DNA from: a bacterium
Lineage (GTDB): Bacteria > BMS3Abin14
DNA length: 39,450 bases
Assembly (NCBI GenBank): GCA_029210545.1
Contig: JARGFV010000012.1
Location: 1 to 39,450, forward strand
Direction: 5' to 3'
Part shown: in pieces, positions 2,974-33,926 of the stretch
Layout of the letters: each line of letters begins with the position of its first letter
How positions within the stretch are numbered: the first letter of the stretch is position 1
Made by a program: the position numbers and the translations under genes
The notes under the pieces: model-generated
Told to the model about the DNA's origin: nothing
Seen by the model: only the letters and a program-made list of their open reading frames with translations
The model's database searches: none

Positions 2974-4860
2974 CTGCGATTTCATCCTGGATCCTGGATC
3001 CTGGATTCTGGATTCCTCATGGCAGCTATATTCTTGCTGCTGCTATCCAGCTGCACCGGCCCCCAGCACCGTCCTGATATCCAGGTAAACTCGATCCCGG
3101 CTGAAATTCGCCAGGACCTCACTGTTTCCGGAGATATCCGGATTCGGGGTGAGGTGAAGGTCTTTCAAGGGGCGGTTCTGACTGTCGAACCGGGGACACG
3201 GTTCCTCTTCGAGCCTTACGACCCGGACGGAGACGGCGTCAACGACTCGCGACTGGTTATCGAGGGCAGGCTCGTGGCCCGCGGAGAGCCGGACGCGCCT
3301 ATCTTTTTTTCCAGCGCGGCCGAGAACCCCGAACCGGGCGATTGGCTGGAGCTTCGCATCGACCGCAGCGAGGGGACGGTTCTGGAGTACTGCGTTCTGG
3401 AGCACTCCCGCTACGGCCTGCACGTGCATTTCAGTTCAGGTGTGGTTGCCAACAGTATTTTCCGGGACAACATCGACGGGACCCGGTTCGGTACGAGCCG
3501 CTTCCTGTTTGTTAACAACGCTGTAGCGGCAAACGTGGGTAAGGGTATCAACCTGCGCGACTCCAGGATAATCATTGCCGGCAACAGCATCATAGGTAAC
3601 CGCCACGGGATCTTCATCTTCGAACAAGGTTCGGAATCGTGGATTACCGGGAACGTTTTCTCAGACAACACCTCCGCGGACATCCGGTTCGGCGATTTTT
3701 ACGAGGGGGACACCCCCCACATGGCGTCCAATGAGGGTCAGGAGAGGGGTGTCGTGGTCATACCTGACCGTGATGACCTTGCCGCCCTGGCCTCCGGAAG
3801 TCCGAGGCTCATGGCCGGGCCTACTGTAACCGTCTGGGAAGCGCACAGCCTCTGGGAGCGGGAGATCGGATCCTTTGTGGACGGCGGCCCTGTCCTGTTG
3901 CCCGGGAAACGTGTGGCTGTGGCCAGCTGGAAGGAGGGGATCACCGTACTGGGTGCGCAGGAAGGGAATATCCTGTCGAGGACGCCCGTGGGAGATGTGG
4001 TGGATGCCACGCCGCTTTCACACGGCTCCGCACTTCTGTTCCCTGCCTGGGACCGTACCTTCGTGAGACTGGACGTGGAAAGAGAAACCGTTTTGAAAAC
4101 CGGGAAGTGGCCGGCCTCTCTTGCCGATGACCACCGGCAGGCTTCACCCGTTCTGCTGGAAGGAAAGGTCGTCCAGGGGCTCTGGAACGGTGAACTCCGG
4201 GCCATGGACCCCTGGACCCTTGAACCGGAGTGGAGTGTTCTCCTCGATGGGCCCATCCGGGCAACACCCATCGTTGAGGCTGGAAATATCCAGGTCATCA
4301 CGGAGTCCGGGACCTACTACCTTGTCACCAACAAGGGAGTCATACTGGTCAAAATGCCGTTGGGCGAACCTGTCTGGTCATCCCCCGCGAGTCTCATGGA
4401 TGGCCAACTTGCTGTGGTGACCAAGACAGGTATCCTGAAACTGTTCCGCGGGAGGGAAAAGAGCTGGTCCAGGAAACTCGGAGGGCCCGGTACGTACGCT
4501 TCCCCCATCGCTCTGGGCCAGCCGCCTCTGGTTTCCGCGGCTGCCGCGGACGGTAACGGTTCGCTCTACCTCTTTGACTCAGATGGAGCCCTGTTGTGGC
4601 GGACCGAGCTCGGCTCGGCCGTCCATACCTTGAGCCGTACAGAACAGACCTTGTGGGCCGGGACCGAGGACGGGATCCTTGCCGCCCTCGACCCCATGAC
4701 CGGACGAGTGAGGCTACGGGTCGAGGCAGCCGGAGCCGTGCACGGCCGTCCCGCCTGGTCGGGAGGTTGGGATCCTGTTATATGGGCCGCCCGGGACGGG
4801 ATCGTACGCGCGTTTGAACTGACGAGGCGCCGGGAGCCCTGGGAAGGCCCGGCCCAATGA
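2893..4860 (+). CDS. Lipoprotein: right-handed beta-helix domain fused to a PQQ-like beta-propeller
   Basis: About 655 residues. A lipobox (LSSC, Cys54) follows a hydrophobic stretch. ATG 2893 overlaps the upstream stop; the alternative ATG 3019 would give an 11-residue signal with no basic residue, so the repeat-derived N-terminus may be genuine. Residues about 75-283 form a NosD-like parallel beta-helix (repeats such as NSIIGNRHGIFIFEQGS). Residues about 308-646 contain repeats typical of PQQ-like/BamB propellers, with many VLLPGK-like and LYLFDSDGALLWR-like blades. The beta-helix half is similar to the protein at 12096-12950. It is likely periplasm-facing and may bind polysaccharide or protein. 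No catalytic residues could be assigned. The stop overlaps the next start (ATGA). Confidence 0.8.
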   Translation: MDYTCVSVCVRRAGVRTFARTHKRLTHLRFHPGSWILDSGFLMAAIFLLLLSSCTGPQHRPDIQVNSIPAEIRQDLTVSGDIRIRGEVKVFQGAVLTVEPGTRFLFEPYDPDGDGVNDSRLVIEGRLVARGEPDAPIFFSSAAENPEPGDWLELRIDRSEGTVLEYCVLEHSRYGLHVHFSSGVVANSIFRDNIDGTRFGTSRFLFVNNAVAANVGKGINLRDSRIIIAGNSIIGNRHGIFIFEQGSESWITGNVFSDNTSADIRFGDFYEGDTPHMASNEGQERGVVVIPDRDDLAALASGSPRLMAGPTVTVWEAHSLWEREIGSFVDGGPVLLPGKRVAVASWKEGITVLGAQEGNILSRTPVGDVVDATPLSHGSALLFPAWDRTFVRLDVERETVLKTGKWPASLADDHRQASPVLLEGKVVQGLWNGELRAMDPWTLEPEWSVLLDGPIRATPIVEAGNIQVITESGTYYLVTNKGVILVKMPLGEPVWSSPASLMDGQLAVVTKTGILKLFRGREKSWSRKLGGPGTYASPIALGQPPLVSAAAADGNGSLYLFDSDGALLWRTELGSAVHTLSRTEQTLWAGTEDGILAALDPMTGRVRLRVEAAGAVHGRPAWSGGWDPVIWAARDGIVRAFELTRRREPWEGPAQ

Positions 4861-7274
4861 ACCAAAGGGACAATCTGGGGATCGCCATCTTTCTGGTCAG
4901 CCTCTCGGTGCTCCTTTACGAACTGACCCTGACCCGTCTGTTCTCGGTGCTCATGTGGTACCACTTCGCCTCCCTTTCCATCGCCGCGGCTCTCCTCGGT
5001 TTTGCTATCGGCGGAGTGGTCGTGCACGTAAGGCCGTCCACGGTGTCGGAAAAGCGGTTCCCGGGGAGCCTGGCTCCCTGGACCGTGGCCGCCGGCCTTT
5101 CCACCATGGCGCCTTTTCTTCTGCTGTGGGCCGCGCGGTTAAAACCAGGCATCCTGTTCCCGCTTCTGAGCTTTTTCCACCAGCCCTATTACCAGCCGTT
5201 CCGGCAGGCCCCCCCGGGACCGGACAGTGCGGTTATCCTGTCCATGGCGGTTCTTTACGCGGTCATTACCGTGCCGTTCACCGCGGCCGGTATCGCGCTT
5301 GCCGGGCTGTTCATGCGCGTGGCGAAGCGCCGCGTTGCGAAACTGTACGCGGCAGATCTTGCGGGTGCTGCCGCCGGTTGCCTGCTGTTCGTTCCGGGAC
5401 TTAAGCTCCTTGGGGCTCCGTCCCTCTTGCCCCTGGCCTCCGCTTCCGCCCTCGCCGCCTCATTTTTCCTCGTAAAAAGGACCAGGCGACTGGTTATCCT
5501 GGGGGTAGCGGTTCTCCTGGTGGGAACGGCCATTTACAACGGGCCTGCCGACCGTATCGTACGAATGCCCTACGCGAGGGGACAGCTGGAACCGGATATC
5601 CGCTTCTCGGCGTGGAACGCCTTGTCCAGGGTCGTGGTCTACCCCTTGAGCCAATGGGAAGCCGAGCAGGCGTGGGGTATCGGCCGCAGGTACACCGGCC
5701 GGCACCCTGAACATATGGGGCTGCTGGTGGATGACGCCGGGTACACCCCTATCATGGAAAACACCGGGGGTGATCCCCGGCCCCAATGGGCGACCTGGCA
5801 CATCATTTCCCCGGCTTTCCAGCTGCGCCCCGGAGCGAGTTCCCTTATCATCGGTCCCGGCGGCGGGCGGGATATCCTGACAGCCCTGGGCAGCGGGGCC
5901 TCCCGGGTCACAGCGGTGGAGTTAAACCCCCTCATCGTGGAGGCGGTGAACGAGCGGTTCAGGGACTTTTCGGGAGGACCGTACTCACTGCCGGGTGTCA
6001 GAACGATCATCGGAGAGGGGAGATCGAGGCTCGCGCGGGAGACGGACCTTTTTGACGTGATCCAGGCAACTTCCGTATTCGGTGAGAACAGCCCCTCAGC
6101 CGGTGCGTTTACCCTCAGCGCCAACTTTCTTTACACGAAGGAGGCGTTCCGGGAGTATTGGGATCACCTGGAAAAAGACGGAATCCTGTCACTTACCCGG
6201 TCGGTTTTCGGTCTCAGGGCGCTGCGTCTCGTGTCCCTTGCCAGAGACCTTCTCGTGGACAAGGGAGACCCCTCACCCGAAAATTCCATTGCCGTTCTGC
6301 GTGAGCGGGGTCTGGCCACGGTCCTTTTGAGAAAGGGCGGCTTCACCGAAAAGGAGATCCAGGCGCTCGGGAGCATTGCTCTTGAAAAAGGGTTTACCAT
6401 CGAATACCTGCCCCGGATCGCCACAGAGGGACGGTTTGCGGATGCCGTGCGGGGTCAGGATATAACCGGCGGCCGCTTTGATATCTCGCCTCCCACCGAC
6501 GACCGTCCCTTTTTCTACAACAACGTCCCCAAGTCACGGTTTTTCAATGTTTTTTTCAAACCGACGGAGCGTGGTGAAAGGCACATCATCGTATTACGGA
6601 CCATGGCCGTCGGCCTTCTGTTCCCCATCGCACTCCTGTTACTCCTCCCTCTCCTCGGCAAAAAGCCAGCCGCCAGCCGACAGCGGTTCCCCCTTGCGCG
6701 GACCTCGGCCTATTTCGCCGGAATAGGGTTCGGATACATGACCATCGAGCTCACGATGATGCACCGACTTGCCCTTTTCCTGGGAAACCCGACCTATTCT
6801 CTCACCGTCGTCCTGGTTGTCCTCCTTCTTTCCTCGGCCGCCGGAAGCCTCTGGTCGGGACGCGGAGTCCGTCGCCTCGGCCGCTATCTGCCTTTGCTGT
6901 CGCTGGCATCGATCTTGCTCTCTATCGTTACGTGGGCGGTCTGCGGGGCTCTTTCACCGTCCCTGGATCTCGGGACCGGTTGGAGGATCCTCGTGACCAC
7001 CGTGCTGCTGTCCCCCCAGGGGTTCGTTATGGGGATCTTTTTTCCAACGGGCCTGGTCTGGGTTTCGGAAAGGGCCGGGAACCTGGTGCCCTGGGCATGG
7101 GCGGTCAACGGCGCCACTTCGGTGGCAGGCTCTCTTGGAACGGTGATCCTGGCAATGAACTTCGGTTACTCACGGGTACTGGTGGCCGGTGCCCTCTGTT
7201 ATGCCCTTACCTTTCCTCTTCTCCGGGCCATGGCCGGGAAGGGGGAAGCTGCACGAAAGGAGGTCGACCTGTGA
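4857..7274 (+). CDS. Membrane-embedded spermidine-synthase-like protein
   Basis: 805 residues. The N-terminal ~220 residues hold about six transmembrane segments. A cytoplasmic SAM-type Rossmann domain follows (GPGGGRD at 333-339, then VTAVELNP, then FDVIQATSVFG). The C-terminal ~210 residues hold further transmembrane segments. The layout matches the fused membrane/spermidine synthase-like family. Classical spermidine synthases carry an Asp-rich D-x-x-DP stretch after strand 4; here it reads QATSVFGENSP, so ordinary aminopropyl transfer is doubtful. It could be a methyltransferase-like or non-catalytic membrane protein. The start overlaps the preceding stop by four bases, and the 20-residue peptide gene overlaps this gene's stop in the same way. 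Confidence 0.85.
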   Translation: MNQRDNLGIAIFLVSLSVLLYELTLTRLFSVLMWYHFASLSIAAALLGFAIGGVVVHVRPSTVSEKRFPGSLAPWTVAAGLSTMAPFLLLWAARLKPGILFPLLSFFHQPYYQPFRQAPPGPDSAVILSMAVLYAVITVPFTAAGIALAGLFMRVAKRRVAKLYAADLAGAAAGCLLFVPGLKLLGAPSLLPLASASALAASFFLVKRTRRLVILGVAVLLVGTAIYNGPADRIVRMPYARGQLEPDIRFSAWNALSRVVVYPLSQWEAEQAWGIGRRYTGRHPEHMGLLVDDAGYTPIMENTGGDPRPQWATWHIISPAFQLRPGASSLIIGPGGGRDILTALGSGASRVTAVELNPLIVEAVNERFRDFSGGPYSLPGVRTIIGEGRSRLARETDLFDVIQATSVFGENSPSAGAFTLSANFLYTKEAFREYWDHLEKDGILSLTRSVFGLRALRLVSLARDLLVDKGDPSPENSIAVLRERGLATVLLRKGGFTEKEIQALGSIALEKGFTIEYLPRIATEGRFADAVRGQDITGGRFDISPPTDDRPFFYNNVPKSRFFNVFFKPTERGERHIIVLRTMAVGLLFPIALLLLLPLLGKKPAASRQRFPLARTSAYFAGIGFGYMTIELTMMHRLALFLGNPTYSLTVVLVVLLLSSAAGSLWSGRGVRRLGRYLPLLSLASILLSIVTWAVCGALSPSLDLGTGWRILVTTVLLSPQGFVMGIFFPTGLVWVSERAGNLVPWAWAVNGATSVAGSLGTVILAMNFGYSRVLVAGALCYALTFPLLRAMAGKGEAARKEVDL

Positions 7275-7333
7275 AAAAGGTGAGATACGTCAGGCCCAGA
7301 GTAGTGGGCAGCAGCAGCGTACATCCGTGCTGA
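7271..7333 (+). CDS. 20-residue Cys-terminated peptide; candidate RiPP precursor or leader peptide
   Basis: The GTG start overlaps the upstream TGA (GTGA). A near-consensus Shine-Dalgarno, AAAGGAGG at 7256-7263, is seven bases away, among the best in the window. The peptide reads VKKVRYVRPRVVGSSSVHPC, with Met expected at position 1. It has a strongly basic first half (KK, R, R, R) and a small-residue core ending in His-Pro-Cys. A GC-rich hairpin starts five bases after the stop. No family was recognised. Options are a substrate for a radical SAM/PqqD system, a regulatory leader peptide for the gene at 7373, or a small membrane-associated peptide. Translation is well supported by the sequence; function is inference. 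Confidence 0.65.
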   Translation: MKKVRYVRPRVVGSSSVHPC

Positions 7334-7337
7334 GGGG

Positions 7338-7359
7338 GGCGGGAGGGAAACCTCCCGCC
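7338..7359 (+). terminator. GC hairpin with GAAA loop after the peptide gene (possible terminator or attenuator)
   Basis: GGCGGGAGG (7338-7346) pairs perfectly with CCTCCCGCC (7351-7359) around a GAAA tetraloop. The following bases, TTGATTT, are only partly T-rich, so intrinsic termination is possible but weak. The next start codon (7373) lies 14 bases beyond and has no visible Shine-Dalgarno sequence. The hairpin may therefore act in attenuation, mRNA stability or translation control. Confidence 0.6.
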
Positions 7360-7372
7360 TTGATTTCCTGCC

Positions 7373-8428
7373 ATGAATGCAACGACCCGGAACTTCCTCT
7401 TCGCATTCCTGTTTTTCAGCACCCTTTTCGTCACCCCGCTTAAAGGGGACGGAACAGGTGTGAGCGGTCAGACACTCTTCAGGGGTAAAGGGCTGTCCGG
7501 TGTTTACGTCCAGGCTTTTGCCTTCCAGGGCGAAAGCAGCGAAGCGGCAGGGGCAGCCAACACCGGGTCGGATGGTGTGTACCATATCCCCCTGGCACCC
7601 GGTTCCTACCGGATCACGGCCCGCAAGCGGCCGGAGGGGCCGGGATCGGGCGGGATGCTCTTTGCCTCCACCGGGGACATCCCTGTTGTCGTGAACTCCG
7701 GATCCATGGAGCTGCCACCCCTTATCCTTACCGATTCGGGGGGGGCTGGAAGCGCCGGGACGGGAGAGACCAGGGTTACCGGAGCCGTCTTCAGTGACGG
7801 GGCTCCCCTTGCCGGGGCGTACGTGTACTTCTATCCGGGGAGCGTTCGCCGTGGCCCCGGGTACGTGGCGAGAGCGAGGACGGGGGAAGGAGGAAACTAC
7901 GAGGCTTCCCTGTCCCCCGGTTCGTACACCGTGACCGTCAGGTTCGGTTGGTCCGGTGACGGCATGGGTACCGTCGATGTGGGCGACCTGGTGGGAGAGT
8001 ACCCGGGGAGCCCCCTGGCGGTGGGCAAGGAGGCTATCGACCTGGGGCGTCTGGACACGCGCCCCGTGGACAGGGGATCGTGGGAAAAATATCGCTGGGC
8101 GGTTTCGGCGGCCTCGATAACCGTCGAGGGTGTGGTAAGAGATGAGAACCGTTCACCGTTGGCCGGCGCCTACGTGTTCCTTTACGCGGATCACAGGATG
8201 GTGGGTAAACCGTATGCCATTTCCCCGCCGACTGCCAGGGACGGACGCTATTCCCTGTCGGTTGATACTCCGGGTACATACTACCTTGGAGCCAGGACAA
8301 GGTTTGGCGGACCGGTGGAGCCGGGTGAGTTCATGGGGGCGTGGGGTGGGGATAGCGCTGAGCCGCTGGTGTTGGAGATTGGTACTTCGTCGCCTTCGCT
8401 GGATATTACGGTAAGAGAGGTCTGGTAA
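7373..8428 (+). CDS. Exported three-domain CPD-reg protein
   Basis: 351 residues. The signal peptide has a hydrophobic core FLFAFLFFSTLFV and no lipobox Cys, so this paralogue should be secreted or periplasmic rather than lipidated. Three CPD-reg beta-sandwich domains lie at about 25-115, 135-228 and 248-351. They share YRITARKRPEG, YTVTVRFGW and YYLGARTRFGGP cores with the paralogues. The protein ends in ITVREVW, the family C-terminus. ATG 7373 is the first in-frame start and lacks a Shine-Dalgarno sequence; it sits just after the GAAA-loop hairpin. The stop overlaps the start of the next paralogue by one base (TAATG). The function is probably structural or binding, as an inference from fold type. 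Confidence 0.83.
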   Translation: MNATTRNFLFAFLFFSTLFVTPLKGDGTGVSGQTLFRGKGLSGVYVQAFAFQGESSEAAGAANTGSDGVYHIPLAPGSYRITARKRPEGPGSGGMLFASTGDIPVVVNSGSMELPPLILTDSGGAGSAGTGETRVTGAVFSDGAPLAGAYVYFYPGSVRRGPGYVARARTGEGGNYEASLSPGSYTVTVRFGWSGDGMGTVDVGDLVGEYPGSPLAVGKEAIDLGRLDTRPVDRGSWEKYRWAVSAASITVEGVVRDENRSPLAGAYVFLYADHRMVGKPYAISPPTARDGRYSLSVDTPGTYYLGARTRFGGPVEPGEFMGAWGGDSAEPLVLEIGTSSPSLDITVREVW

Positions 8429-27189: not shown

Positions 27190-27201
27190 ATGAGATCTGA
27201 G

Positions 27202-28122
27202 ATGAAAATATTGAGAGTTCTATCGGCAGTCAGCCTGGTTGTGGCCCTCACCTCGTGTCAGCCTGGAGCAAAAGCGCCGGCAGAGCAGGCTGTTACCGAT
27301 GCGAAGCCCATCCGCATCGGGTACATGATCTGCGACGGTCTCGGGGAGACGAAGAGCCGCTTCGAGCCCCTGACCCGCTACCTGGAGGAAAAAACCGGAC
27401 TGCCCTTCGAGCCGGTCTACCTCAACACCTTCGAGGTACCGGAGGCCTTCGAAAAGGGTGACCTGGATATCACCCACACCAACTCCCTCCTCTACGTGAT
27501 CATGCGTGAGAAGGGGCTTGAACCCCTCGCAGGGGAAAAGAGGGGCAGCCTGGGCTTCATGAGCGCCGGGGGGATCGTGGTCAAGGCCGACAGCCCCATC
27601 GTGGAAATGGCGGACCTTGCGGGGAAGCGCATGGCTTTCGGACCCCAGCTGGCCCCCACCGGGTTCCTCTCCCAGTACGAGCTTCTCCTGGATGCCGGGA
27701 TCGATCCCGAGATGGATCTCGATTACTACGCTATTCCCGGGGGAGCATACAAGCATGAGAAGGTGGTTTACGGTGTGTGGATGGGAGCTTACGACGCTGC
27801 GGCCGTTCCTCTCCTGGATCTTGAGTTCATGATCCGCGACGGCAAGATCGGTCCAGATGACCTGCGTATCATCGCCCAAAGCGACCCGATCCCCTATTGC
27901 GTTTTCGGGATAGCCCCCGGCGTGGTTCCGGAAAGGGCCGCGAGGATCCGGTCACTGCTCCTGAACCTCCTTCCGGCAGACACGGTGGCCCTTGACGGTG
28001 AAGTGAGGTCCGTCCTCAAAAGCGCCGGTGTGGAGGGGTTCGTCCCCATCGAGGACTCCGATTTCGATCGTGTGCGGGAGATGGCAAGAAAGACGAAGAT
28101 GCCCCCGTACCAGGAATTTTGA
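27202..28122 (+). CDS. PhnD-like phosphate/phosphonate-type substrate-binding lipoprotein
   Basis: 306 residues from ATG 27202. ATG 27190 is four codons upstream, within a GAGATCTGAGATG repeat; neither has a strong Shine-Dalgarno. The lipobox is LTSC. The rest is a complete periplasmic binding fold of the PhnD/phosphonate-binding type (IRIGYMICDG; FEPLTRYLEEKTGLPFEP; GDLDITHTNS; DLAGKRMAFGPQLAPTGFL; YDAAAVPLL; SDPIPYCVFGIAPGV). No ABC transporter permease or ATPase is nearby. It could be a sensor or carrier, for example for an oxyanion handled by the neighbouring YedE pathway; that is inference. Confidence 0.82.
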   Translation: MKILRVLSAVSLVVALTSCQPGAKAPAEQAVTDAKPIRIGYMICDGLGETKSRFEPLTRYLEEKTGLPFEPVYLNTFEVPEAFEKGDLDITHTNSLLYVIMREKGLEPLAGEKRGSLGFMSAGGIVVKADSPIVEMADLAGKRMAFGPQLAPTGFLSQYELLLDAGIDPEMDLDYYAIPGGAYKHEKVVYGVWMGAYDAAAVPLLDLEFMIRDGKIGPDDLRIIAQSDPIPYCVFGIAPGVVPERAARIRSLLLNLLPADTVALDGEVRSVLKSAGVEGFVPIEDSDFDRVREMARKTKMPPYQEF

Positions 28123-28146: not shown

Positions 28147-28674
28147 ATGACCGGACGATCCATTGACAGATTTACTGAAATCCTCGCGATCCTATGTGTC
28201 ACCGCGGCAGTGGTGATCCTCCTCGTTCCTTCCCGGGGACCGGACGCCGGCGCCGGCCTGGCGGGACTCAGGCCCCAGGAGATCCAGGGCGGCGAGGGGG
28301 TGCTTTTCCGTACCTCCATGGATGAGGTCCGCCGCCTGGTGGATGGCGACCGGGATCCCGGACGCAGGCTGGACGACCTTACGGCCCGTTTCCCCCGACG
28401 GCACGAGGTGTGGGCCCTCTCTGCCCGGTACCACGAAAATATGGATGAGGAATCGGCTGCTCTCGTGGACTATGCCCGCGCCGTCCGGCTTCAGCCCGAT
28501 TACCTGGATGAAGGGTCCTCCCTCTACCTCGGAGCCAGGATCGGGGGGGTGACGGGCCGGGAGTTGACAAGATTGAGGGTGAAAAAAGCGGCAGAGGGCC
28601 TTACCGGTGAGGAACAGGACATTCTCAGGGCGGCCTACTTCCTCGTGAGGCGCCTTGCCGGAGGGTGCGAATGA
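28147..28674 (+). CDS. Membrane-anchored TPR-like small protein
   Basis: 175 residues. One transmembrane segment lies at about residues 8-25 (EILAILCVTAAVVILLV). Residues about 80-120 look like a TPR unit (EVWALSARYHENMDEESAALVDYARAVRLQPDY). It lies 24 bases after the PhnD-like gene and overlaps YedE by four bases, so it probably shares their transcript. No specific function could be assigned. Confidence 0.68.
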   Translation: MTGRSIDRFTEILAILCVTAAVVILLVPSRGPDAGAGLAGLRPQEIQGGEGVLFRTSMDEVRRLVDGDRDPGRRLDDLTARFPRRHEVWALSARYHENMDEESAALVDYARAVRLQPDYLDEGSSLYLGARIGGVTGRELTRLRVKKAAEGLTGEEQDILRAAYFLVRRLAGGCE

Positions 28675-29729
28675 GGCGGCTTTCTTCCGACACACTCCTC
28701 ATCCTCGCCAGCGGTATCAGCCTGGGAGGGCTGGGGGCGGCTCTGGCCCTGTGGGGTAACCCGGCCAACTCGGGGATCTGTATCTCCTGTTTTGTGGAGA
28801 ACCTTTCCGGGAGCCTCGGACTCCACCACGATCTGAGGATGTCCTATTTCAGGCCCGAGCTGGCAGGGTTTGTTGCAGGCGCTTTTCTCATGGCCCTCGC
28901 CGGGAGGGAAATGCGTCCCCGTTCGGGCACGTACCCCGTGATCGGTTTCGTCCTGGGCGTCCTTCTCATCGCAGGCTCTTCCGTGTTCATGGGCTGCCCC
29001 ATCAAGATGATGCTTCGCCTGGGAGCCGGGGATCTTACGGCTGTAGCCGGAGTGGCGGGTCTTGCCTTCGGTGTCTGGATCGGGGTCCGCTGCTACAGGG
29101 CCGGTCTCGACCTCGGCGCACCCACGCCTGGCGGGGGAGCGTTCCAGGCTTCCTTGCTCCCGCTCGTGATCGTGGCCGGTTTCGGGTTGTCCGTAGCGGT
29201 GGGCGGGCTCTTCCTGGCCGGGGACACCGGTCCGGCGGCACGGAGGGCACCTCTTGTCATTTCCCTCGCAGCGGGCCTGATCATCGGTGCCCTGGCCCAG
29301 CGGTCCCGGTTCTGCGTGACGGGGAGCTTTTCCAACTACTTCCTGGCCCGGGACACCGTCCTGATGCGGGGACTCGCCGCCCTTTTTCTGGCGGCCCTTT
29401 CCGTCAGTGTCCTTTCCGGCGTCTTTAATCCCGGACTGCTGGATCAGCCCGGATCCCACCCCGACCACCTCTGGAACTTCCTCGGGATGGCACTGGTCGG
29501 GTTCGCGTCGGTCCTTGCAGGCGGATGCCCGTTCCGTCAGCTCGTCCTGAGCGGCGAAGGATCGGTGGACGCTTCGGTGGTCGTCCTGGGCATGGTGGCG
29601 GGAGGAGCGATCGTTCACCTGTGGGGCATTGCGAGCACCTCGGCCGGGCCGACACCCTTCGGAAAGGCGGCGGTACTGCTTGGTTTAGCTTTTTGTTTCG
29701 GGATCGCAAGGTTTTACCGGAAAGCTTAG
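28671..29729 (+). CDS. yedE: YedE-type putative selenium transporter (YeeE/YedE family)
   Basis: 354 residues with about nine to ten transmembrane helices. The opening GNPANSGICISCFVENLSGSLGLH matches the selenium-associated YedE subgroup. Conserved Cys residues occur in FMGCPIKMM, RSRFCVTGS and LAGGCPFRQL, as in YeeE/YedE thiosulfate and selenium channels. Family members are predicted to import a sulfur or selenium species. Its position near an EF2568-type desulfurase gene and DUF3343 fits the known co-occurrence with selenium traits. The start overlaps the preceding gene (ATGA). Confidence 0.87.
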   Translation: MRRLSSDTLLILASGISLGGLGAALALWGNPANSGICISCFVENLSGSLGLHHDLRMSYFRPELAGFVAGAFLMALAGREMRPRSGTYPVIGFVLGVLLIAGSSVFMGCPIKMMLRLGAGDLTAVAGVAGLAFGVWIGVRCYRAGLDLGAPTPGGGAFQASLLPLVIVAGFGLSVAVGGLFLAGDTGPAARRAPLVISLAAGLIIGALAQRSRFCVTGSFSNYFLARDTVLMRGLAALFLAALSVSVLSGVFNPGLLDQPGSHPDHLWNFLGMALVGFASVLAGGCPFRQLVLSGEGSVDASVVVLGMVAGGAIVHLWGIASTSAGPTPFGKAAVLLGLAFCFGIARFYRKA

Positions 29730-29898: not shown

Positions 29899-30234
29899 AT
29901 GCAGAAAAAATTATTTCGCAACCCCGACGTTAACTGGCGCGTTGAGTCCCACCGGGAGGCGCATGTACGGGAGGTTCTGGAGGATCCAGCGAGGGTTGAG
30001 GAAGACGAGCAGGCGCAGGATGTGGGGACCGTCACCATCCTTGCCGGAGGCGTCATGCACCAGCTTAACCTCCTGGGCGGTGAGATCTGGAAACTGTGTG
30101 ATGGTTCCCTCGACCGGGAAGGGCTGATGGGAGAGCTGATCGGGATGTTCGAGGTGGACGCGGAGACCCTCTCGGAGGATGTGAACCTCTTCCTGGACGA
30201 GATGGCGGGCCAGGGGCTGATCGATGAAAAGTAG
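29899..30234 (+). CDS. GeoRSP-type PqqD family peptide chaperone
   Basis: 111 residues. Residues about 13-110 match the PqqD fold, a winged-helix domain that binds leader peptides and hands them to radical SAM enzymes. The key part is VGTVTILAGGVMHQLNLLGGEIWKL, then a DVNLFLDEMAGQGLI tail. GGAGG is seven bases upstream of ATG 29899. The radical SAM gene starts inside this gene's 3' end. PqqD, radical SAM/SPASM and SPASM-only order is that of the GeoRSP system described by protein-family curation in Geobacter. I know of no established substrate for that system. Confidence 0.88.
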   Translation: MQKKLFRNPDVNWRVESHREAHVREVLEDPARVEEDEQAQDVGTVTILAGGVMHQLNLLGGEIWKLCDGSLDREGLMGELIGMFEVDAETLSEDVNLFLDEMAGQGLIDEK

Positions 30235-31264
30235 CGACCTTCTCTCGGCGCCCCTGACCGTCAACTGGTCCCTGTCCTACCGGTGCAACTTCACCTGCAG
30301 CCACTGTTACAGCCGCGCCCTTGACACCGGGACCCTCTCCCTCGACGAGCTTTTCAGGATCGTCGACCTCCTGGCGGAAAAGGGGGTGGTGTTCATCAAT
30401 TTCGGCGGTGGGGAGCCCCTTTTGCTGGATGATCTTTACCGGATCACGGGCCACGCCGTGTCCCGGGGACTCAAGGTCACCATGAACAGCAACGGATGGC
30501 TCCTGGACCAGGGGGCCGCCGGGCGCATCCGGGAGGCGGGCTTTCACAGCGTGGGGATCAGTATCGACAGCCCTGAACCTGCCGGCCACGACCGGTTCCG
30601 CGACCGGCCCGGCAGTTTCGTCCGCGCTGTCGAGGCTCTTGGACATTTGAGGGAGGCGGGCGTCAGGAGCACCGTTTCGTGCGTCATCAACCGCGGGAAC
30701 CTTCACAACTGGCGGGAGATGGTGGGTCTTTGCCGGGAACAGGGAGTGGGGACCTTGTATCTGCACAACTACAAATGTTCGGGCAAGGGGCTGGTGAACA
30801 TGGAGGAACTGGACCTGACGCCCGGTCAGTGGGGTCAGTTCTACACCGGGGCCCTGGCGGTCAGGGAGAAGCTCGATGACCTGACCATCTCCTTCGACGA
30901 TCCCATCATGGCTGCCCTGCCGGGGTACAGTCCCGACGCGGCGGTCAAGGGCAGCACCTGCGGCAAGCTGAGCCTCCACATCGGACCCGACGGCCGGATA
31001 ACCCCCTGCGGCTTCATCCCGATCTCTCTCGGTCACATCCTGAACGACGATTTCGACGAGATCTGGTTCAACTCTCCCATACTGGAAAAGATGCGGTCCA
31101 AGACGCCCCGGGGCAAGTGCGCCGGATGCTCCAGTTACGAGGATTGTCTCGGCGGCTGTTCGGCCCGGGCCTTCGCCATGACGGGGAGCTTCGAGGACCC
31201 GGACCCGCACTGCTGGGTGGAGGAAGGTCAGTCCAAAGTCCAAAGTCCAAAGTCCAAAGGATAA
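30224..31264 (+). CDS. GeoRSP-type radical SAM/SPASM maturase
   Basis: 346 residues. The radical SAM cluster motif CNFTCSHC uses Cys21, Cys25 and Cys28. GGGEP (61-65) and SIDSPEP follow. The SPASM domain begins at Cys246 (STCGKLSLHIGPDGRITPCG) and contains CAGCSSYEDCLGGCSA and a final Cys near HCW, enough to bind auxiliary 4Fe-4S clusters. Such enzymes modify peptides, typically those bound by a PqqD partner. The last 12 residues (GQSKVQSPKSKG) come from a fourfold AGTCCAA tandem repeat at 31230-31257 and are probably not ancestral. It overlaps the PqqD gene by 11 bases. Confidence 0.92.
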   Translation: MKSSDLLSAPLTVNWSLSYRCNFTCSHCYSRALDTGTLSLDELFRIVDLLAEKGVVFINFGGGEPLLLDDLYRITGHAVSRGLKVTMNSNGWLLDQGAAGRIREAGFHSVGISIDSPEPAGHDRFRDRPGSFVRAVEALGHLREAGVRSTVSCVINRGNLHNWREMVGLCREQGVGTLYLHNYKCSGKGLVNMEELDLTPGQWGQFYTGALAVREKLDDLTISFDDPIMAALPGYSPDAAVKGSTCGKLSLHIGPDGRITPCGFIPISLGHILNDDFDEIWFNSPILEKMRSKTPRGKCAGCSSYEDCLGGCSARAFAMTGSFEDPDPHCWVEEGQSKVQSPKSKG

Positions 31265-31541
31265 TCTAAAGCTGGTTCATTTACCGCAGGGAACGCAGTG
31301 CGGCCGACTGAAGGCCGCATCGCAGGGTAAAAGCGCAGCTCAATTACCGGGTTTTAAAAAACGGTTCATCGGGCAAATGAGTATCTGGTGACCAGAAATT
31401 TTGGGGGAGCCAGGGGTTTTATAAGCATTGACACAGAGGACAGGGAGGCGGCTCGCTGGTAGGCCGCCCGTCCCACGAAGTTACACAGAGAAAGGCCCGG
31501 GCCGGCATGGAGATCATCTTTCCCTTACCTGAACGGCTGGA

Positions 31542-31587
31542 CCTTCAAGGCCGGGATGAAAGCGGGCTTTGATCCCGGCCTTGAAGG
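31542..31587. repeat. Perfect 16-bp inverted repeat
   Basis: CCTTCAAGGCCGGGAT (31542-31557) is the exact reverse complement of 31572-31587, with a 14-base loop. There is no T run, so it is probably not a simple terminator. Confidence 0.85.
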
Positions 31588-31767
31588 CTCCATCTGCCGA
31601 TTTCGGAGAAATGCCTTTCCCGAATGGGAAAGGTCAGGTGAGGGGAAGGATCGTTGGTTTCCTCTGTGATCTCTGTGAGCTCTGTGGTGAGTGCCCTTCC
31701 GGGTCTTGAAGTGACACCACCCAGGTACGCATTAACCGGGTGAACCTAATAAACTTTATTTTGATCT

Positions 31768-31823
31768 CCCCTGTGAAACCCTGTGGAGCGATCTGAAAGC
31801 TGATCGCGCTGCGGTGAGTTAGC
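31768..31823 (-). repeat. Dispersed hairpin element, family 2 copy 2
   Basis: Reverse complement of the 19998-20049 element, with stem bases changed in a compensating way. It lies about 25 bases upstream of the SPASM protein start. Confidence 0.75.
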
Positions 31824-31846
31824 TTTTGGTTGTAAAGGTGTTTCAA

Positions 31847-32728
31847 ATGAGTGATCTGAAGTTCGATCTCCCATTGCGTATCCACTGGCGGCCGGGTTCC
31901 GAAGTCTCACCGGCCATCGTGGAATCCATCAGGAAAGCCAACCCCCTAGCCGTCACCGTTCACGTCGAGGACGTGGAGCAGCTGGCGGCCACCGGCCTTC
32001 CCTGGGAGGGGATCCCGGTGGTGGTCATCCACAACGGGTGGAGAAAACAGACGGCCTCCCTGCCGGCCCTTGACGTGCACAGGTGGGAGTTTCCTGTCAG
32101 GGGTCCGGACGAGGCCATGGCCCTGGCATCAGGGGGGTTCGCGGGCGCCGACCCGGCCAGGGCCGCCCTGCGTTGGTACCCCGTTCGTGGAAAACTCCGT
32201 CACCTTGCTCCCATCCTGGAACTGGCGGCAAGGTACGGGTGCTCGGTCACCTTGCCAAACCGTCCGGCCGATGTTATCACCAGCGAAGAGGGGGGGACTT
32301 TCCCCGATCCGGATGAACTGGATGATGGGCTCTTCGGGGCGGTCAGGAGCGCAGCGGCTCTCCTCCAGCCGGGGAAGATCAGGGTTCACGATTTCATCCT
32401 GACCCGGGCCCTCGGCCTGGAAAGTATGGAGCCGTCGGGGTGCGAGGCCGCCAACGCCATCGCTTTCATCGACGGGGAGGGCATTGTGTATCCTTGCGAG
32501 ACGCTCGGGGTGCCCATGGGTGACCTTGGCCGGGAGGAGCTGGAGGCAATATGGGCGTCCCCTCTTCGCGCGCGGGTGCGCACGGATGTGGGGAAGATGC
32601 CGGGAGTCTGCGTCCGGTGCCCTGAGCTGACGATGTGCCGGGGAGGATGCCGGGGAGCGGTTTACCACCTCAAGGGGCACTACCTGGCCCCTGACCCCAT
32701 GTGCCCCTTATCTTGTAACAGTGGCTGA
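31847..32728 (+). CDS. GeoRSP-type SPASM domain protein without radical SAM cluster motif
   Basis: 293 residues from ATG 31847; AAAGGTG is seven bases upstream. The N-terminal ~190 residues look like a degenerate radical SAM barrel (IVESIRKANPLAVTVHVEDVEQLAATG) but have no CX3CX2C motif, so the SAM-cleaving cluster is absent. The C-terminal SPASM domain is intact: Cys199, then YPCETLGVPMGDLG, CVRCPELTMCRGGCRG and a final CPLSC. It is expected to act as a non-catalytic partner or scaffold for the radical SAM enzyme. The next gene's possible starts lie within or just after its end. Confidence 0.87.
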   Translation: MSDLKFDLPLRIHWRPGSEVSPAIVESIRKANPLAVTVHVEDVEQLAATGLPWEGIPVVVIHNGWRKQTASLPALDVHRWEFPVRGPDEAMALASGGFAGADPARAALRWYPVRGKLRHLAPILELAARYGCSVTLPNRPADVITSEEGGTFPDPDELDDGLFGAVRSAAALLQPGKIRVHDFILTRALGLESMEPSGCEAANAIAFIDGEGIVYPCETLGVPMGDLGREELEAIWASPLRARVRTDVGKMPGVCVRCPELTMCRGGCRGAVYHLKGHYLAPDPMCPLSCNSG

Positions 32729-32759
32729 TGATATGCAGGCAGAAACAATGGAAACAACC

Positions 32760-33926
32760 ATGAGCAATAAGATCATCTACCTTAACAACGCGGCGGGAAG
32801 CTGGCCCAAACCGGACCAGGTCATCGACCGGATGGTGTGGGCCGCCACCGAATTCCCCTCCACCCCGGGACGGGGCGGGTCAGGGGTCCGCAGTGAAAAG
32901 GTCCTGTTCGACACGCGGGAGTCGCTGGCCTCCCTCATCGGCGCTGCCGACAGCTCCCGCATCATCTTCACGCCCAACACCACCGCGGCCCTGAACCTTG
33001 CCATCGCCGGCCTGGTCAGGAGCCGGGACCATGTCGTCACCACCTCCATGGACCACAACTCGGTAGCCCGTCCCCTTGCCCGTCTCGAGGACCGGGAAGG
33101 GGTCGAGGTGACGAGGGTCCAGGCTGGAACAGACGGAACCGTGACGGTCTCTGCCATCCTGGAGGCGGTGAGGCCCGAAACAGCCCTCGTCGTAATGACC
33201 CACGCCTCCAACGTCACCGGGACCATCCAGCCGGTCAGTGAGGTCGGGCCGGCTCTGCGAGCCATGGGAGAGGGGAGACCCCTGCTCCTTGCCGACGCAG
33301 CCCAGACCGTCGGTGTCCTGCCTGTCGATGTTACCCGGGACGGGATCGACCTGCTGGCCGCTCCCGGGCACAAGGCCCTTTACGGCTCCTCGGGTACGGG
33401 GTTCCTCTATGTAGGTCCTGATGTGGAGCTCGAGCCGATCGTCGAGGGGGGAACGGGCGGCCATTCCTCCCTGAGGCGTCAGCCCGAGATGCTGCCGGCG
33501 CGCCTGGAAAGCGGCACTCCCAATATCCCGGGTATCGCCGCCCTTGGAGCGGCCGTGGAATTTATCACCGGAAAAGGTCTGGACACGATCCGGCAGCACG
33601 AGGCCCGCCTGATGAGGGTCCTCATCGATGGGCTAAGCCCGATCCCGGGGGCGCATCTCTTCGGTCCCTGCGACCCCGTCCGCCAGCTGGCTGTCCTCTC
33701 CTTCAGGCTGGACGATATGGATCCCGCCGAAGTGGCCACGTTCCTCGCTGAGGTGAAAGGTATTCACGTTCGGGTCGGTCTTCACTGCTCCCCCTTTTCC
33801 CACAAGACCCTGGGCACCTGGCCCGAGGGCACGGTGAGGGTCAGCCCCGGCGTCTTCAATACGGAAGAGGATGTCCAGGCCCTCGTGGAAGGTGTCACGC
33901 AGCTGCAGGAGATGAGGGGTGCCTGA
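32760..33926 (+). CDS. Cysteine desulfurase family protein (EF2568-type class V aminotransferase)
   Basis: About 388 residues from ATG 32760. In-frame GTG 32721 and ATG 32733 and 32748 are alternatives; none has a good Shine-Dalgarno. Chosen because family members begin close to IIYLNNAAGSWPKP. The PLP lysine is Lys205 in PGHKALYG. Cys343 (GLHCSPFSHK) is the likely persulfide or selenide-handling residue, followed by GTVRVSPGVFNTEEDV. The family releases sulfur or selenium from cysteine or selenocysteine. This subgroup co-occurs with selenium traits and DUF3343, which is the next gene. Confidence 0.9.
   Translation: MSNKIIYLNNAAGSWPKPDQVIDRMVWAATEFPSTPGRGGSGVRSEKVLFDTRESLASLIGAADSSRIIFTPNTTAALNLAIAGLVRSRDHVVTTSMDHNSVARPLARLEDREGVEVTRVQAGTDGTVTVSAILEAVRPETALVVMTHASNVTGTIQPVSEVGPALRAMGEGRPLLLADAAQTVGVLPVDVTRDGIDLLAAPGHKALYGSSGTGFLYVGPDVELEPIVEGGTGGHSSLRRQPEMLPARLESGTPNIPGIAALGAAVEFITGKGLDTIRQHEARLMRVLIDGLSPIPGAHLFGPCDPVRQLAVLSFRLDDMDPAEVATFLAEVKGIHVRVGLHCSPFSHKTLGTWPEGTVRVSPGVFNTEEDVQALVEGVTQLQEMRGA

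Follow-up and report, generated by a model that had tools for sequence, protein, structure and literature searches.

The product of a 20-codon gene in a bacterial genome is very likely the precursor peptide for a new kind of ribosomally synthesized and post-translationally modified peptides (RiPPs), matured by the GeoRSP cassette. We put the probability of this reading, which is drawn from sequence comparison, at roughly 0.87. The tie to GeoRSP follows from three results: the occurrence of the peptide, its position, and its motif. What is new is the precursor family; the GeoRSP maturase is already named. A curated radical SAM cassette, found in about a third of the sampled Desulfuromonadia and also in Nitrospirota, thereby gains a probable substrate, and metal-reducing bacteria and related anaerobes very probably make a GeoRSP-modified peptide. 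Among precursors of this type it is very short, and a gene of 17 to 20 codons is likely shorter than what gene callers usually accept.

A conserved 20-codon gene

The window, the whole stretch of DNA that we analyzed, is 39,450 nucleotides long. The features around the peptide gene are these:

4857..7274, + strand: fused membrane/spermidine-synthase-like gene, 805 residues (weak PRK00811 match only)
7256..7263, + strand: Shine-Dalgarno AAAGGAGG, with a 7-base spacer to the GTG start; invariant across the seven orthologues
7271..7333, + strand: putative precursor peptide ORF, GTG at 7271, (V/M)KKVRYVRPRVVGSSSVHPC (conservation, pN/pS of 0.30, wide family)
7337..7360, + strand: GC-rich hairpin directly 3′ of the peptide stop (fold and z-score)
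7373..8428, + strand: CarboxypepD_reg protein, directly downstream of the peptide (Pfam)

By direct reading, the peptide ORF has 20 codons and ends with TGC TGA at 7333, and its start shares a GTGA with the stop of the 4857-7274 gene. The hairpin is a 10-bp stem in which 7337-7346 pairs with 7351-7360; the structure containing it folds at -25.1 kcal/mol, with a z of -3.05 against dinucleotide shuffles, and is possibly a terminator or 3′ stabilizer of the precursor message. The Shine-Dalgarno with its seven-base spacing, the GTGA overlap, and the hairpin after the stop were thus all as the initial annotation had described them, both on direct reading and on folding. The peptide carries YVRPRV at residues 6 to 11, an instance of a YxxPxV motif, ends with the conserved VHPC, and has no Asp or Glu.

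The genome of the window (2.7 Mb) belongs to a small phylum, from which we compared 12 genomes, all of one family. The peptide, VKKVRYVRPRVVGSSSVHPC, recurs in seven orthologous operons, those of the window and six relatives. In the relatives it is 74 to 85% identical and stands behind the orthologous membrane/spermidine-synthase-like gene, whose own orthologues are 62 to 69% identical where measured. Pooled over the seven peptide orthologues, two of which (G004 and G009) have identical peptides, pS is 0.45 and pN is 0.14, a ratio of 0.30. Third codon positions vary at 13 of 19 sites in this set, and each of the other two positions varies at 6. The window peptide is under purifying selection. 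The stem behind the peptide stop is kept in the relatives despite changed sequence, and in G004 and G009 it is followed by a T run. The initial annotation had held this micro-ORF to be real and had named conservation in related genomes and bias at synonymous sites as the checks. Both were present, in six relatives and as a pN/pS of 0.30 over the seven orthologues, and the Shine-Dalgarno and 3′ hairpin are kept as well.

Paralogues of the form MKxRYIAPKxVGSSSVHPC occur on another contig of the window genome (G000:C121:609-665) and in G003. The second copy in the window's genome, MKRRYIAPKVVGSSSVHPC (locus L016), lies upstream of a 784-residue ORF.

The product of the 4857-7274 gene has no Pfam match. 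We rejected this gene as a functional partner because most peptide copies elsewhere have other neighbors and do not follow such a gene; it is incidental to the peptide family. In the window, a long run of genes on the same strand (95-26368) includes FG-GAP/ASPIC, CPD-reg, NosD, DUF362, NapGH-type ferredoxin, and ResB genes, and is partly conserved in the relatives.

The peptide family and its association with GeoRSP

We searched one genome per species, over 84,980 species, with a degenerate 48-base DNA pattern. This first pattern matched at least 118 stretches, with at least 116 distinct DNA sequences. All but one of the 80 loci examined encode peptides of 17 to 20 residues, MK(K)xYxxPx[V/I]xGSxxVHPC, nearly all of them led by a Shine-Dalgarno; the exception, a match in Eisenbergiella, has no Shine-Dalgarno and is a chance match. 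The hosts are Geobacteraceae, Desulfuromonadales, Nitrospirota, Deferrisomatales, and others; Pelotalea chapellei DSM 13688 and Geobacter sp. AOG1 are among the carriers. Since the first pattern forces Y, P, G, H, P, and C, conservation at these residues is selection by the search. A second, motif-free pattern required only that the peptide begin with Met and a basic residue and end in [V/I/M]HPC before the stop, and its peptides, where in frame, have the Y, the P, and the hydrophobic residue two behind the P. The Gly is not invariant in the family (VVASSNVHPC, VTASGSIHPC). Most members have a single C-terminal Cys, and a selenocysteine version (VHP-TGA) was not seen in the loci examined. No model in the NCBIfam library matched the peptides, and we found no prior description of them in the searched literature, which excluded subscription papers and preprints. 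Tiny genes of this kind form a large family that has been overlooked, and the window peptide is one of its members.

The initial annotation had proposed that the peptide co-occurs with GeoRSP genes, and this was borne out in two phyla. We sampled 200 Desulfuromonadia genomes at a completeness filter of 90 and scored GeoRSP as TIGR04303 at E ≤ 1e-50. TIGR04303 was present in 65 genomes and the peptide pattern in 64; 63 had both, 2 only GeoRSP (G203 and G233), 1 only the peptide (G243), and 134 neither (Fisher P = 1.7e-48, which overstates independence, as the genomes are related). A reversed control pattern matched 0 of these 200 genomes, versus 64 for the 48-base family pattern. In Nitrospirota (n = 164), GeoRSP was over the cut-off in 22 genomes and an in-frame peptide was present in 19; both were found in 18, GeoRSP only in 4, the peptide only in 1, and neither in 141 (P = 3e-19, with independence again overstated by relatedness). 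One genome scored here as GeoRSP only, G044, carries the peptide by the first pattern. Across phyla, the maturase is present at E ≤ 1e-50 in 44 of the 49 peptide genomes among the first-pattern matches listed; the remaining 5 are MAGs or drafts without a detected maturase. The genome of the chance match has no maturase. Overall, the peptide occurs without a detected maturase in G243, G390, and five MAGs. Conversely, G001, G005, G203, and G233 have GeoRSP, and no peptide was found in them by the pattern, a relaxed pattern, or a protein search; their substrate may have diverged.

The window also encodes a GeoRSP cassette with further genes:

27190..28122, + strand: PhnD-like substrate-binding lipoprotein (PF12974)
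28147..28674, + strand: membrane-anchored protein of about 175 residues, between the binding protein and YedE (no Pfam/NCBIfam match)
28665..29729, + strand: YedE-family putative sulfur/selenium transporter (TIGR04112, 365 bits)
29899..30234, + strand: GeoRSP PqqD-like peptide chaperone, or RRE (TIGR04302 best match, 91 bits versus a cut-off of 100; PF05402)
30224..31264, + strand: GeoRSP radical SAM/SPASM enzyme (TIGR04303, 421 bits versus a cut-off of 400; CX3CX2C is CNFTCSHC)
31826..32728, + strand: GeoRSP SPASM-domain protein (TIGR04304 best match, 75 bits versus a cut-off of 300; no radical SAM cysteine motif)
32721..33926, + strand: cysteine desulfurase/selenocysteine-lyase-like enzyme (TIGR01977, over the cut-off)

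The PqqD and radical SAM/SPASM genes are indeed 22.6 kb from the peptide, as first described, starting at 29899 and 30224 on the same strand. GeoRSP comprises a PqqD (TIGR04302), a radical SAM/SPASM enzyme (TIGR04303), and a SPASM protein (TIGR04304). In the window, the maturase is over the TIGR04303 cut-off; the PqqD and SPASM proteins score below their family cut-offs, yet the GeoRSP families are their best matches. A motif scan found no CX3CX2C in 5 of 5 SPASM proteins inspected, and this protein is therefore probably a non-radical partner.

The PhnD-like lipoprotein, the protein of about 180 residues, YedE, PqqD, the radical SAM enzyme, and the SPASM protein form a recurrent set in the window, Desulfuromonadia, and Nitrospirota, with a gene order that varies in Geobacter. 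PhnD-like genes also adjoin GeoRSP at L265, L268, L274, and L275. A membrane-anchored protein of 175 to 186 residues, likewise matching no Pfam or NCBIfam family, holds the same place in several phyla (L265 7137-7682; L268 14192-14734). The desulfurase-like gene follows the SPASM gene in Desulfuromonadales cassettes too; we rejected it as a universal partner, as it is absent from the inspected Geobacter and Nitrospirota cassettes. Among the 200 Desulfuromonadia genomes, YedE (TIGR04112) is present in 64 of the 65 with GeoRSP and in 9 of the 135 others (P of about 3e-41 or stronger). Each of the nine is either a fragment or of a subtype that scores higher, which leaves 0 of 135 in the GeoRSP-type score range, so the GeoRSP-type YedE looks specific to GeoRSP genomes. 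Its near-obligate presence, in 64 of 65, suggests that GeoRSP may include a sulfur/selenium transport part. No dedicated leader protease or exporter was recognized among the cassette genes inspected.

In many genomes the peptide gene is part of the cassette. Of the GeoRSP-bearing Desulfuromonadia genomes listed, 36 are non-Geobacteraceae, and in 32 of these the peptide lies about 35 to 220 bp downstream of the radical SAM gene; the first pattern located 29 of them, and relaxed searches added G099, G140, and G101. This count and the split from Geobacteraceae-like genomes were made by hand from coordinate listings. The order there is radical SAM enzyme, peptide, SPASM protein, often followed by the cysteine-desulfurase/Sec-lyase-like gene; MKKYMKPKVVGSSNVHPC is the peptide of one such Desulfuromonadales cassette. 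In the family of the window, in Geobacteraceae, and in Nitrospirota, the peptide lies outside the cassette, sometimes within 10 to 40 kb; in the window it is 22.6 kb from the maturase genes and not adjacent. The gap between the radical SAM and SPASM genes of the window (31264-31826, about 560 bases) contains no second copy of the peptide. This gap is the place where other lineages carry it.

Putative leader motif, alternative readings, and known systems

Discrete lasso-peptide RREs recognize [Y/W]xxPx[L/V/I/F/A] (PMC13381572), and W/Y/LxxP-type motifs have been assigned to RRE groups that include PqqD (PMC12710340). YVRPRV of the window peptide fits the published motif. Of 140 short Shine-Dalgarno-led ORFs at the examined loci that end with [V/I/M]HPC, a set that is partly pattern-selected, 138 carry YxxPx[V/I/L/F/A]; YxxPx[V/I/L] is also present in the in-frame peptides from the motif-free second pattern. 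The fit suggests that the N-terminal half is a leader and SSSVHPC a core.

We considered whether the gene could be something other than a precursor. The short length is all that speaks for a chance open reading frame, and with orthologue conservation, a wide family, purifying selection, and a reversed pattern without matches against it, this prospect is negligible. An attenuator would also be a short ORF with a conserved C terminus and a hairpin in mid-operon: the behavior of a ribosome at the VHPC-stop, together with the hairpin, would set the expression of the operon genes that follow, with cysteine as one possible signal. However, 24 of 82 copies are followed, by a crude gene prediction, by a convergent gene, and nothing downstream could be controlled; on this ground we rejected attenuation for the family at large. 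Selection covers the full length of the peptide with its YxxP, and a regulatory ORF would not be expected to co-occur with one maturase in several phyla, which leaves the regulatory reading very improbable.

It is improbable, too, that a real micropeptide acts unmodified, on a membrane or by binding a partner, and co-occurs with GeoRSP only through a common habitat or pathway. Many copies do adjoin genes for exported proteins and not the maturase, but the tight two-way co-occurrence, the in-cassette position, and the RRE-type motif would then be unexpected. The several further radical SAM enzymes in these genomes raise the prospect that another enzyme modifies the precursor and that GeoRSP acts on something else. 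GeoRSP alone is adjacent and was profiled here, however, and the below-cut-off radical SAM paralogues occur in many genomes without the peptide; we consider this extremely improbable.

The favored reading is still that of a RiPP precursor matured by GeoRSP. The suggestion of a leader-plus-core precursor linked to this cassette, made from the window alone, now gains conservation, selection, co-occurrence, and the YxxPxV motif; the modification itself we infer. The PqqD-like RRE would bind the N-terminal half, KKVRYVRPRVVG, through YxxPxV and would deliver SSSVHPC, at the C terminus, to the radical SAM/SPASM enzyme and its partner, the putative non-radical SPASM protein. Modification would most likely fall on the terminal Cys, for example as a thioether to an upstream residue or as another change within VHPC.

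The proposed system resembles several known ones. PQQ and mycofactocin also have a short precursor and a SPASM radical SAM enzyme, and PQQ has a PqqD-type chaperone; when the window GeoRSP enzyme is compared with NCBIfam, the mycofactocin maturase ranks among its better matches. Precursor cores of PQQ and mycofactocin have Glu/Tyr or Val/Tyr ends. The family described here differs in its VHPC core, in its several scattered precursor copies, and in a cassette where we saw no further processing enzymes. Lasso and other RRE-dependent RiPPs likewise combine a discrete RRE of the PqqD type with a YxxPx[L/V/I/F/A] motif in the leader (PMC13381572). Unlike lasso systems, the cassette has no B2 protease or asparagine-synthase-like cyclase that we could find, the window peptide has no ring-forming acidic residue, and a precursor of 17 to 20 residues is too short to accommodate a lasso core. 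The resemblance to sactipeptides and ranthipeptides lies in the SPASM radical SAM enzyme and in the conserved Cys of what would be the core, whereas most peptides here have a single, C-terminal Cys, and a Cys thioether is a candidate modification. No description of a GeoRSP substrate was found in the searched literature.

Scattered copies and their neighbors

A genome may have up to about 12 copies of the peptide gene, and the further copies stand next to multiheme cytochromes and exported CPD-reg proteins. Among 42 upstream neighbors, 12 have doubled CXXCH, 14 have cytochrome c3-type matches, and 9 have CarboxypepD_reg matches; downstream, CarboxypepD_reg is the commonest partner type (15 of 38). 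A simple RiPP cluster would not usually have copies scattered among genes for exported proteins, and so many of them there are also unusual for a soluble cofactor. The arrangement suggests that peptide supply may be tied to each operon, and copies beside cytochromes and exported proteins suggest an envelope role in metal-reducing bacteria.

Product chemistry and function we infer from this context. The product may have an extracytoplasmic role alongside multiheme, CPD-reg, and NosD-type exported proteins, a point that is less certain still than the modification. Sulfur or selenium handling is a similarly tentative setting, to which the gene neighborhood points through YedE, rhodanese, and desulfurase. 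A fuller proposal is that the GeoRSP product is a peptide-derived cofactor or a metal/sulfur ligand on the VHPC Cys, delivered to exported multiheme cytochromes and to CPD-reg/NosD surface proteins, with each operon supplying its own precursor and the binding protein and YedE supplying sulfur or selenium. We regard this as doubtful. If true, extracellular electron transfer or the redox chemistry of the cell envelope would turn out to use a cofactor not known before, the Cys-borne product.

At L155 (6089-7998), the peptide lies between an ExtH-like rhodanese and a pair formed by a 180-residue protein and YedE; the peptide at L128 (3-1032) likewise lies between a rhodanese gene and such a pair. 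This rhodanese-peptide-YedE neighborhood links the peptide family to sulfur or selenium chemistry. In Geobacter sulfurreducens, extH is the first gene of a cluster, and ExtI from that cluster has been implicated in the reduction of selenite and tellurite (PMC5877670). Two Nitrospirota genomes, G042 and G323 (L303-L306), have 11 to 12 pattern matches each, and peptide copies there alternate with paralogous genes for small exported proteins.
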